Source of the DNA: Symmetrospora coprosmae
Taxonomy: Eukaryota > Basidiomycota > Cystobasidiomycetes > Symmetrosporaceae
Reading direction: 5' to 3'
DNA: 64,000 nucleotides
Assembly (NCBI GenBank): GCA_008802785.1
Contig: VUYT01000008.1
Span: 620,001-684,000, forward strand
The notes under the pieces are model-generated. The model was not told the origin of the DNA, made no database searches, and saw nothing but the letters and a program-made list of their open reading frames with translations. Below are positions 41,411 to 47,400 of the stretch, one piece after another. The stretch's first letter is position 1, and each line of letters begins with the position of its first letter. The position numbers were made by a program, and so were the translations under genes.

Positions 41411-44400
41411 CTAAGCGTAGTTGTCATCGATATCTGCTCCGAGGCCGTCTTCGCCGGATGCGATGAACTGCGAGAAATGAGCGGTACGGTGGGCAACCGA
41501 CCAGTAGCCCTCGGGCGCTCCGACGAGCGTCATCGAGTACGGCATGTTGGCCGTGAACTGAGCTCCCAGCGATAGCGAGTAATTCCACGTTCCACCAACC
41601 GGGGCGAATGTGCTTCCGAGGATCCTGTCAGACAGCAGGAGCTGCGCCCGCTCGACCATGCTGTTCGGATTGTACCCAACAGGGTTGTTGATGTCGGCAT
41701 TGCGGGCCCACTCGAAGCACTTGGGCGTGAGCGCGTAGGCAGACAGCGAAAGCGATCCCGGTGTGAAAGCGACCGAGAGGACGATCGACTGGCCGTCCAT
41801 CTCCTCGTGCTGCGCCATAAGCTTGCCGAAGAGGATGGCATCGTTCGGCGAGAGCGTCTGCGCTTCCTGCGGCTGCGTCTTGATGATACCGACAAGCTTC
41901 ATGTCCTCCAGCACCTCGTGTCGAGGCAGCTCTGCGGGGAGCTCGACTGACCGCTGGCTGGCCTTCTGGGGCGGCAGGGCGATGGCCTTGACCTCCACCA
42001 CGCGACTGTTGTCGGCAGGCACTGTACCATAGAGGTACGCGACGATCGACGTGCGCAGATCGGCTGCCAGAACGAGGGACTTCATGACATTCTTTGCCAG
42101 CACAAAGGTCGGCAAGTTGTCCGAGACATCGTCGTTCGTGACGTAGGTGTGCTGCAGACGGAGCGGAATATTGGTAGCCGAGATGGCTCGGATTCTCCAG
42201 TCCGACTTCGACGAGAAAGTCTGGTTCTCGTAGTTGGTCGTGGTGACGACCTGGATCTGGTCTCCGTGCACGTTGGTCGTCTGCGTCTGGGTAGCAGTGA
42301 CCTGCGCTGCTGCCTCGGCGTTCTTCTCCAGCTCTGCCATCTGCTGTCGCTGCACGGACGGCGCCTGGATTTCCATTCCGAGGATGATGTCTCGGACTTC
42401 GCTAGACGTGAGAGAAGCGGTATTGACCGAGTTCCGCTTGGCATAGTCGGCCAGGACCATGTCCTTGAGCGCTACCTCAACGCTGACCCATTCGTCATCG
42501 CTGAGCGACGGCCAGACGTGGTGCGGCTGCGTGATGGTGTTCTTGTTCGGTCGCAGAATGATCTTTGCCTTCTCGTTGTTGACGTGCAGACCTCGGAGGA
42601 TGAGCACGAGTCGAGAGAAGGCAGTGAAGGACGAGATCGACTTGAGCCAGTCGTCATAGAGCGAGGCCAGCACCATCTGCGGCTGGGTGGCGCGCAGGAT
42701 GAGATCTCCGAACTTCTCGAGCTTCATGGCAGCCTGGAAGGGCAGCTGGAGCTCGGAACCCTTGATGACGATGTTGGGGAAGTCTAGCAAGTGGACCTCG
42801 ACTGCCGGCGACACGCAACTGAGTTCAGCCGCATGTAGAGCAACACGGACGATGGAGGAACTCACGAGGATCCAACATTCCCTTTCGAGTGACAATGACC
42901 TGCTTCGGCTGCTCTTCGACCGGCAGCGAGCGGACCAGCGCGGCGACCTCTTCTGCGGTCTTCCACTTGGCAAGCTGTCCGAGACGCTTCTGACCAGCCC
43001 AAACGGACGTGTGGATGATCTTGAGGAAGAGCTGTCCGGATCGCGGGTTGAAGATGAAGATGGCTCCGTTGATAGGCTTGGTGACCAAGTTACCCTCGAA
43101 CGTCTTGTGGATGGTGACTCGGTACACGTTGGTGTCGTCGACGAACCAGATGATCTGGTTGCTGAACAGCTCCGAGTAGTTCTGCGAGCTGAGGTACGGC
43201 TCGGTAGGGTCGGACGAGTAGAGCTGCAGACCTTTGCGAATACGCTCGCGCAGGACGTAGAGGGCGGGGTTTGCCTTCATAATCTTGCCAAGCGCCTGCT
43301 GGAGCAGAATCTTCATGCCCGGGAAGTAATTGCCGTAGCCTGCGTACAAGCTGTAGGCGAGGTCGAAGACGATGAGAACACCGCACGGCGACGGGTAGAT
43401 CGACATCGAGTCGGTCGTGTAGTCGAGGAACTTGGCTCGCGCGTATCGCTCGGCGTCGTGGCTGTCGTAGTCTCCCCAGCGCAGCTGAATGTCAATCCAG
43501 TACTTGTTCGTAGTAGTGCCGTCGAGAACGTCCTTCTGCTCGTTGAGCAGCGAAGGTCGCGTGACATTCCACTTGAACGAACTGAAGAGGAGGATATCGG
43601 CACAACTCGAGTTCATCTTGTATGACTTTCGAGGGTGGATTGTCTCCTTCTGGACTGTCTCGATCTGGAGAGCCTCGAGCTCCTGGTCGAATACCTGGCA
43701 CACTGTGGGCAGAAGAGGACAGGTCAATAACGGAACGTTCTTGTGCGCATCGTACGTAACAGTCTTATGGGCATCTGTCAGAACTTACGATCCATGCACA
43801 CGCTCTCGTGAATCTTCTGCCACAAGTGCGCTCGGAAGATTTGAATGAGCGAGATCTTGAGGGTAGGAATCTTGCCCATCATCATGATACCCGTAAGATC
43901 GAGCTGGACCTGGAAACCGACGTAGATGTTGGATCGGTTGATGGTCGGTGACCACCAGAGGGTGAACCGTCGGTTCGGGATCTGGTTGAGACCGGATCGC
44001 TGTGCATTTGTGAGCTTCTTGGCCCTGCGTTGCGAAACGGTGTTAGCATGTGTACTAGCATATATTCCGACGGATACAAGCACTCACTTCATGCTCTCTT
44101 CGAAGCCGCCGGCCTGTCCATGGAGCAACCGAAGATCAGCCAAAATTCCGGGAAAAGGGAAAGGAGACAGCGGAAGCCACCTTCTCCCAGAACAGACTGC
44201 CCAGTAGTATCTGTATTAGCTCTATGTACTTCCCGTAGCAGTCCTAGAGCGGCCGGACTCACCCCTCCCAGGTGGGGAAGCTGGGAGGTGGCAAAACAGG
44301 ATGTAAGTGTCTAGAAAGGCACCAGGAGGTCAGGAAACGAGTACCCACTTCGTTCCTTTGAACAATGTGTGCTCCAAGATCTAAATATGAGCATCCAAAA

Positions 44401-47400
44401 ATCAGTTTAGTTGCAGCCTGCGCTCCCCATCAGACGATGGCCGGGCAAGCCGACTCACCCTGCGTGCATCGAGAAGCTGGAAGGTGAGATAACAAACAGT
44501 TAGCATACCAAGCTTTTCAAGACGCGCAGAGTGTAGGCACTCACTCCGTTTCCGGTGAGAAGGAGCAAGGATGAAGTCAGAAAAGGTCTGTCAGCTCCGC
44601 CACCCCACCGGACAAAGCAGATATAGAGCCCCGCAGCTGGCGGAAGGGCCTCGTGCACCACGATATACGAGACATGTAAGGCATGTCTCATGCCTGCTGA
44701 CTCACCCTTCGACGCCGCCAAGGGCGGCAATCTGCGGAGAAAGGGGCGGAAATACATCAGATCATTACACACAAACTCGAAACAATGCAAATGGGGTGCA
44801 ATAGTTTACCACATCGACTCGATAGTTATTGAGTTGCCATAGCTTCCCGTCGTGTCTGGGAGGTGTTTGGGAGGTGTCAGAAGGCTGTTGTGTGCTTTCC
44901 GGGGCCCGGGGGGCCCTGGAGGCGGAGAGGGGGCTCACCTCTGCGACGTCCACCAGAAGGGGTTGTGCTTGAGCAGCTGGTACTGCTTCCAGTCTGTCCT
45001 GACTCTCCATCCCTTGTCGTAGGCCAAGGTATGGCGATCTTTCTATGTACGGCACTCGGTGGCGTCAGTGGCAAAATTTGCGGGGCAGCCTGGACAGCAC
45101 CACACGCACCTGGAAGAGCGTAGAGATACGCGGAATACCACGGTCCCATGAGTCCTCCAGGTCCTCGAGCGTCACTGCAGACGAGTTTGCAGACGAGTTT
45201 GTGGTCGTTTCGGACAAGGTCAGTTACTCTCGGAAGAATCGTCACGGTCTCGGCAAGCTAGGCACCTCCACTCACATCGACGGTTCTGCGCGCTGGCTTC
45301 CTTCCTCTTCATCGAGTACTCGGACCAGACGCGCGCCGAATCAAGGAACTCTGCCTCCCACGGCTGGATGTATCGATACAGGTTCGGGATGAGAGCATCC
45401 TCCTCGTGCGTCATGCCCGCGCGGAAGTGCGAGATGCCCGTCTCAGTCTGCCTCGACCAGCGGAGGTCAGACTGCGGGATGAGTACGTGACCCATGCTGA
45501 GCTGCCCAAGACCTCCAAGTTCCTTCGGGCACTGTACGGCGGAAACGGCAGAGGCAGGGCGAATCGACGTGTCAGCTCGAGATGCCATACAATGCGGATT
45601 TCGCGAAACAACCGACGTAGAACACGACAGGTGGGAAACGCGAGGGCATCTTGGAGTTGAGACCGATCTTGACTCGAGTCTGGATCTTTGTCTCGGACTT
45701 GACGAGCAGGTCGAGCATCTCGGTGGTGTGGATGACTGCCTCTCGGTAGTACGTCATCAGGCCAATAAGCGCAGTGTTCCACTTGTTTATGATCTTGCTG
45801 AACGTCGTTGATCCGGAGGCCATGAGGACCTGTCGGATCCTGTTGGTGAATTGCTCGATTCCGCGATCGGAGACGCGGAGGAAGGCCTGAGCGGTCCGCT
45901 CCTTGGTCTGCTCGTTCGTGAGGTTCCAGACGCCATCGCGCAGCGTGAACTGCTCGTTGACGTTCCTAATCTTGGGCAAGATCCGGACCTCGAAGTGGCA
46001 CATCTGGAAGAGGAGCTGCGGATTGTCCTTCGAGTACACGGAGACGTACGAGTCGTCCCACTCGATTGTAGTAAGCGAGCGCGGAAGGCGGTTCTTGATG
46101 TCCCAGAACACGGCTCGTCCGAGGTTGACATCGTGCTTGATAAGGCGCATCCGGCAGTCTCGCGGCCAGCAGCGGCGGTTATTGTAGCCGATAATGTTCT
46201 CGTTGTTCGGGTCTGGGTTCGCAGAGAGGTACCTCTGGATGAGATCTCTCGACTCCTCGGCATTGAAGCGGAACATGATATGCAGCTTGTCGACGTATCG
46301 CGAGTACAGGCGGATCGGATGCCTTGTCTCGGTCGGCGTGTCCTGGAACTGCAGGAAGTTGTTCGGCATGTTGGGCGGTCCAGCCATCTCGCTGGCTCGG
46401 TGCAGGCCGAGGATGAGGAGATCCAGCACAAGACCGTAGTACTGGAAGATGAAGCTCGAGAACTGCAGGCCTCGAATGAGGCCGTACGCGTTCGTGTGCG
46501 ACATGTCCTTGTACGTGAGCGTGATGTTGTTCTTGGCCGTGCAGTAGTCCGCCAGGTTGTGGTCCATGATCAGCCTGAGCAGCCTGTTGAGCAGGGTCAG
46601 GTCGATCTTTTCGTAGACCTTGCTGAGCTGCGTCTCCATGAGCACGTTGCACTCTCCATCCGCCGTCTCCCACACATCGTGCAGGTTGTTGATACCCTGG
46701 CACCACTTGTACACAAGGAGCGGAGGCGGCTCGGTATCTCCTGGCTTGATCCATGCGGGGAACAGACCTCGCTTGTCGGCCTCAAAGTAGAGGAACTGGT
46801 CGAGATATGCGTCCGTGATCTTCTCCATAGGCTCAATGTCGTAGCACGGGATGAGCTTCTCGTACGTATCGAAGAACTCGATACCGGCCTCCTTGAATGC
46901 TCGCTGCGTGAGCAGGAGTCGCTTGATTCGCGAAAGCGTCTCGTGCGGGTTGTCGTAGGCCTGCTCGACGAGTGCCAGCTCCTCTCGCTGGTTCTGGTTG
47001 AGACGTCCCTTGACCGAGTACGCCTCCTTCAACTTCTCAAGCGCCAGCACGAGCAGCTTGGTGTCGTGCTTGTACGAGAGAGGCGGAAAGGGGATGGGAG
47101 CAAACTTCCTGCTCTCAAGCCAGTGGACCGTGGCGGAGTAGATGGCAACAGCCTCTTCCGAGCTGATGTATGGCCCGTCCTTGAGGTAGCTGTTCTGTCG
47201 CTCCTGCTCTGCCTTGAGGAACAGCCGCGTGAGACGGCCGAGGTTCTTCTTCGAGACGGTCTTGTCGACGGTAGCTCCCCGGCGGATACGCTCCCGGTTG
47301 TAGTGCGCAACCGAGGTCCACCAGTCGGCCTTGCTCTTGACGAAGCGGAGGATGATGTTCTCAATGGCTGTGGGCATGCCGGGCACCTTCCAGGGAATGT

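Follow-up and report, generated by a model that had tools for sequence, protein, structure and literature searches.

A single G at position 44459 of a 64,000-nucleotide stretch of Symmetrospora coprosmae DNA (positions 620,001 to 684,000 of contig VUYT01000008.1, assembly GCA_008802785.1; hereafter the window) is likely to be a spliceosomal exon of one base that restores the reading frame of PRP8, the core protein of the splicing machine. The predicted exon (exon 12, 44459..44459) would supply the third base of a glycine codon, and frame, conservation, splice-site scores and the enumeration of alternative parses make it the best-supported reading of the locus. The preliminary description of this DNA had proposed that such an exon closes the frame, and on those four grounds the proposal holds up best, although the loss of a base during assembly at a GGG exon edge stays as a rival. 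Coordinates are window positions throughout and the PRP8 features all lie on the minus strand.

The Frame Gap and the Conserved Glycine

The PRP8 gene (41411..50004) was modeled with 19 exons, a coding sequence of 7029 nt and a product of 2342 amino acids. In this model exon 11 (44706..44731, 26 nt) ends in GAA GG, which is two bases of a Gly codon, before GTGAGTCAGC, whereas exon 13 (44349..44380, 32 nt), placed by the gene model and by conservation, starts with ATC TTG GAG CAC in phase 0 after TTTAG. The edge GAAGG (44706) and the edge ATCTTGG (44380) are thus jointly one base short of a Gly codon, as the preliminary description had stated. Its view that this glycine is nearly invariant is likewise upheld by the 120 homologues listed (of 3318 matches), in which the residue at the joint is Gly in 118, Ser in one and Ala in one. 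In every one of these 120 a single residue stands between GGVE or GGIE and xLEH, such that the length of the joint is constant (119 rows were counted by pattern and P0007 by eye; P0012 holds the motif twice and its first copy was counted). Constant length together with the glycine in 118 of the 120 therefore calls for exactly one base, although any base completes Gly (GGN) and the frame does not require G specifically. With the G at 44459 included, the coding sequence reaches the whole-codon length of 7029 bases that had been claimed for it, with its sole stop at the end of the 19 exons. In alignment the glycine corresponds to residue 1483 in the human chain and, going by segment coordinates, to residue 1555 in the yeast chain.

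Splice Sites, Parses and Chance

The claim that this G is flanked by an acceptor and a donor is correct, as the minus-strand base lies between GCAG and GTGAGTCGGC. It separates intron 11 (44460..44705, 246 nt, GTGAGTCAGC...CACGCAG) from intron 12 (44381..44458, 78 nt, GTGAGTCGGC...ATATTTAG). Splice sites were scored with donor, acceptor and branch-point models trained on 107 introns of at most 120 nt, taken from 139 filtered predictions in a training region of 314 kb around and including the window. These models were built on a self-trained gene finder run without transcripts; it started from the GT/AG consensus, so that rare sites are too few in the training set, to which all percentiles refer. 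The donor of exon 11 at 44705 (AGG/GTGAGTC, the slash marking the splice site) and the donor at 44458, in the context GCAG/G/GTGAGTC, both fall at the 93rd percentile of the 107 introns, and the GCAG acceptor (44460) scores 5.01, at the 46th percentile. Intron 12 is of ordinary length and has an ordinary branch point, AACTGAT, situated 21 nt upstream of the intron end (39th percentile). All four of the splice sites that flank or join the one-base exon fall inside the range of the trained introns. Three AG-N-G(T/C) sites occur in the 325-nt interval between exons 11 and 13, with a GT donor at 44459 only.

Parses of this interval were enumerated with GT-AG introns of at least 45 nt, at most one inner exon, exon 11 unshortened and the start of exon 13 fixed. 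Eleven were in frame and free of stops. When these are ranked by their weakest site, the one-base parse comes first (5.01, followed by 2.44), and no other parse yields the conserved EGILEHTLF. Sites of this quality are rare, with only two AG-N-GT sites scoring at least 5.0 on both sides in the 314 kb on both strands (628,000 strand-bases), the PRP8 site being one of them. The chance expectation for a site as good is 0.00075 in the usable part of the 325-nt interval, and one arose in 1 of 5000 dinucleotide shuffles. Across the 20.05-Mb genome the pattern YAGNGTGAGT occurs 462 times, or roughly 0.004 times in every 325 nt of a single strand, vs 350 for its reversed control. A recursive splice site (a zero-length exon) was considered and rejected, as one base stands between the AG and the GT. 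A hunt for further one-base exons in the 314 kb returned 25 sites with both scores of at least 3, none judged convincing, the best flanking-coding total being 8.5 on an uncalibrated score; the PRP8 site, with its tiny exons, receives a total of -12.4, which leaves this hunt with little power.

Evidence Against and Rival Explanations

Several observations weigh against a one-base exon. The preliminary description had warned of a stronger acceptor 17 bases upstream, and this proved justified: CCTTCCAG (44477..44484), ending in CCAG at 44477, outscores the GCAG at 44460 by 6.49 to 5.01 (89th vs 46th percentile). Use of this competing acceptor makes an 18-nt exon (44476-44459), which is what the gene finder picked, splitting PRP8 in two; it also dropped PRP8 exons 9, 10, 13, 15, and 16. 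The likely branch point of intron 11, TGCTAAC (44499..44505), is itself below average (score 4.71, 20th percentile), and its A lies 23 nt from the end of CCAG, close to the median of 24, and 40 nt from the end of GCAG. A distance of at least 40 nt is found in 9 of the 107 introns, and in only three is an earlier YAG, lying 10 nt or more beyond the branch point, skipped. Moreover, the intron 12 acceptor, TTTAG, ranks low (6th percentile), and intron 11 is long at 246 nt; it is the longest of the model, in which the others measure 63-102 nt, and 16 of the 139 predicted introns are at least that length. A weaker branch point, CTCAC (2.35 vs 4.71), lies 8 nt from CCAG and 25 nt from GCAG, and would favor GCAG if used, though its score is low. 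Since the use of CCAG creates the 18-nt exon and loses the frame, either GCAG is used often enough for PRP8 to be made or the genomic letters are wrong.

The latter option, a base dropped from an exon edge during assembly, is the rival that we take most seriously, though we regard it as unlikely. In its simplest form GGGG at the donor of exon 11 was reduced to GGG; exon 11 would then end in phase 0 before a single intron of 325 nt, which would explain the frame. The edge of exon 11 is a run of G, and G runs are a common place for one-base assembly errors; predicted introns of at least 325 nt exist elsewhere (12 of 139), and the 314 kb holds N runs of 10 and 100, which are gaps or withheld letters. 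Against this, the rest of the 7-kb PRP8 model contains no further frame break, and a survey of the 314 kb roughly bounds the assembly-error rate. At the first setting all eight frame-break clusters had plausible introns (sensitivity 58 of 200), while at three looser settings clusters lacking one numbered 2 of 22, 2 of 12, and 3 of 22 (sensitivity 66, 61, and 62 of 200, respectively). If each of the latter clusters were an error, the rate over about 135 kb of predicted coding sequence would be some 4 to 7 per 100,000 bases, with sensitivity taken from simulated indels in exons of at least 300 nt and short exons less well covered. A lost base would also leave to chance the strong GCAG/G/GTGAGT between two well-formed introns, which was matched in the single shuffle of 5000 mentioned above.

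Two further explanations keep the genomic letters as they are. Removal of a single non-canonical intron of 324 nt, either GT...TA before GATC or TG...AG after GGG, leaves GGG ATC and hence a product identical to that of the one-base exon, because the 325-nt interval begins and ends with G. Spliceosomal introns very seldom have such termini, all introns of the model can be placed on GT-AG (and were so placed by us), and the micro-exon motif would again be left to chance, all of which renders this explanation highly improbable. A larger frame-keeping insert, for example an exon of 28 or 43 nt within the 246-nt stretch, is harder still to credit. Inserts of this kind give ten parses that are open and in frame, but in all ten the weakest site is poorer (2.44 at best), and each adds at least one residue at the joint, where none of the 120 homologues listed has any.

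Within intron 11 there is also an unused strong donor at 44544 (GGA/GTGAGTG, 77th percentile), which divides the intron into 161 and 85 nt. A [D1,2] stwintron based on GGAG/TGAGTG at this position was rejected, as exon 11 then ends in GAAG and the frame fails with either the one-base or the 18-nt exon. In the trained set G at -3 of acceptors has a frequency of about 1%, though the starting model already disfavored that base. A hairpin formed by CUCACCUU with the micro-exon donor (-12.7 kcal/mol) was not significant (z -1.16; 27 of 200 shuffles did as well), and Rfam at gathering thresholds gave no matches in the whole window.

Predicted Order of Splicing and the Cost of Errors

If the G is an exon, introns 11 and 12 would probably be removed in succession, since one base leaves no room for both U1 on the GTGAGT of intron 12 and the 3' splice-site machinery on GCAG. 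The 78-nt intron 12 would most likely be removed first, an order that we infer. The G would then become the first base of exon 13 (GCAG/GATCTTGG) and intron 11 could be joined as in ordinary splicing, with CCAG passed over in productive transcripts. Stepwise removal is also favored by the authors who described the one-base exon of Arabidopsis APC11, who cite a potato invertase mini-exon for which the second intron is removed first (PMC4674806).

Errors at this site would be costly. A stop is reached at codon 1521 if exon 12 is skipped, at codon 1527 if the 18-nt exon is made via CCAG, at codon 1492 if intron 11 is retained, and at codon 1510 (GCAG) or 1498 (CCAG) if intron 12 is retained. All five of these simple missplicing outcomes place an early stop with 3 to 7 exon junctions downstream. 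Transcripts that use CCAG or skip the G are therefore predicted targets of nonsense-mediated decay, presuming that such decay operates in this host.

A Run of Tiny Exons and Neighboring Features

The predicted one-base exon is the third of seven consecutive tiny exons in the gene model (46, 26, 1, 32, 18, 16, and 26 nt; 44088..44855, 768 nt), a run flanked by exons of 104 and 236 nt. Further oddities are found here. At the joint of exons 15 and 16 (44196-44088) PRP8 reads WEKAGGF, where xSGF stands in 76 of 113 matched rows of the listed homologues; in the remaining 37 the A is succeeded by other letters, in many cases an intein (part checked), and seven rows were unmatched. We take this joint to be the Prp8 intein site, at which Ser, Thr, or Cys would presumably be needed. 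Intron 15 has a poor donor (GTGGCT) and opens with GTG GCT TCC, which would translate as V-A-S, as though a remnant of former coding sequence had stayed inside the intron. Three donors, at 45616 (GTCGGT), 44809 (GTAAAC), and 44180 (GTGGCT), score below all 107 trained introns, a set in which rare donors are under-represented. In the gene adjoining PRP8, taken for an AFG1-like ATPase, a 64-nt minus-strand intron (39615-39552) is open enough to resemble a frameshift; the corresponding frame-break cluster near 39580, one of the eight at the first setting, was also resolved by eye.

Identity of the Gene and Its Host

The window sits in a 735-kb contig of a genome of 77 contigs, and a search with the exon 18 protein found one PRP8 locus in that genome. 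The top matches of the gene are PRP8 of Sporobolomyces, Rhodotorula, Atractiella, Puccinia, and Mixia at 82-84% identity, and the 120 listed homologues range from 73 to 84% within the best aligned stretch. A tree of 22 proteins places it in a fully supported group (100/100) of nine rows including itself, the others being one metagenome protein and seven named species. These seven we take to be Pucciniomycotina. The host is a relative of the rust fungi and is none of the named species in the tree, which does not settle its class. A search of viral contigs for PRP8 loci of related fungi gave none. The search of genome contigs gave only one, JALZUG010000054.1 of a Rickettsiaceae metagenome-assembled genome (L027:3363-4196). 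As it encodes a PRP8 relative, 71% identical, within a bacterial assembly, it is probably contamination from the host of the bacterium.

Possible Origin and Significance

Between the intron 12 donor and the exon 11 edge, 14 of 16 bases agree (CGAAGGGTGAGTCAGC vs CGCAGGGTGAGTCGGC). Only 1 of 300 shuffles scored as high in this alignment, and none of the 496 other GTGAGT donor pairs in the training set are as alike. The comparison was made after the match had been seen, therefore it is a lead on origin and not a result. An origin from an introner or repeat is unsupported, as stretches of 401 and 164 nt matched only themselves in the own genome. A speculative and rather doubtful idea would combine this likeness with the decoy acceptor, making PRP8 its own splicing gauge and exon-edge copying a birth route of one-base exons. 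By that route an exon edge would be copied into the intron, where the change of one base (AAG to CAG) would create an acceptor. A one-base exon behind a stronger decoy would then be resolved only by a fully working spliceosome and, as each simple misstep would lead to a decay-bound transcript, the output of PRP8 would report and tune splicing capacity.

If transcripts bear it out, the one-base exon would lie in the very gene that encodes the catalytic core of the spliceosome, and the spliceosome would need to process one of its most extreme substrates in order to be made. On a small scale, the site allows a test of the way in which two introns with one base between them are removed, and of the means by which a more distant, weaker acceptor might beat a nearer one. 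It is also a warning for annotation, as the gene finder took the 18-nt exon, lost five exons and broke PRP8 in two.

Comparison With Known Systems

The view in the preliminary description that no one-base exon was known in fungi is out of date. A one-nucleotide exon in Fusarium CYP621A, supported by reads from the Sequence Read Archive (SRA), is called the first for a fungal gene (PMC12940212, 2026). It resembles the PRP8 site in being an AG-G-GT arrangement in a nuclear fungal gene that supplies one base of a Gly codon in a conserved motif, in having been deduced from frame and homologues and in lying within a combined intron that is long for the species (139 nt in F. graminearum). It differs in that its base takes the middle position in the codon, about 20 orthologues share the exon and SRA reads confirm it, whereas the PRP8 site is in a basidiomycete, concerns the third codon base and is predicted from the sequence. 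Our survey of the literature, which was of limited coverage and does not prove absence, found no basidiomycete and no spliceosome gene with a one-base exon.

Plants provide two further parallels. The single-nucleotide exon of Arabidopsis APC11 is an A in a 422-nt interval that was proven by cDNA and base-swap constructs (PMC4674806). It shares with PRP8 a conserved gene, a base on which the frame depends and a putative branch point well upstream (44 nt, compared with 40 nt in PRP8), but the base is A and the host a plant. The 1-nt microexon of VPS55 has, like PRP8, a strong donor (GTRAGT) directly after the base, but its conservation reportedly extends over the land plants, some of which include it alternatively (PMC8831610). 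Fungal [D1,2] stwintrons also have adjoining introns that are removed consecutively (PMC12403724); in these, however, one intron is described as interrupting the splice signal of another, while in PRP8 one exon base stands between two complete introns. Single exon bases have also been reported between mitochondrial group II introns in fungal rnl (PMC12308204) and between mitochondrial introns in placozoan cox1 (PMC5436844), which, unlike PRP8, are organelle genes and are not spliceosomal. One-base exons are thus already known, and the interest of the present case is in its gene, its strong decoy acceptor and its run of tiny exons.

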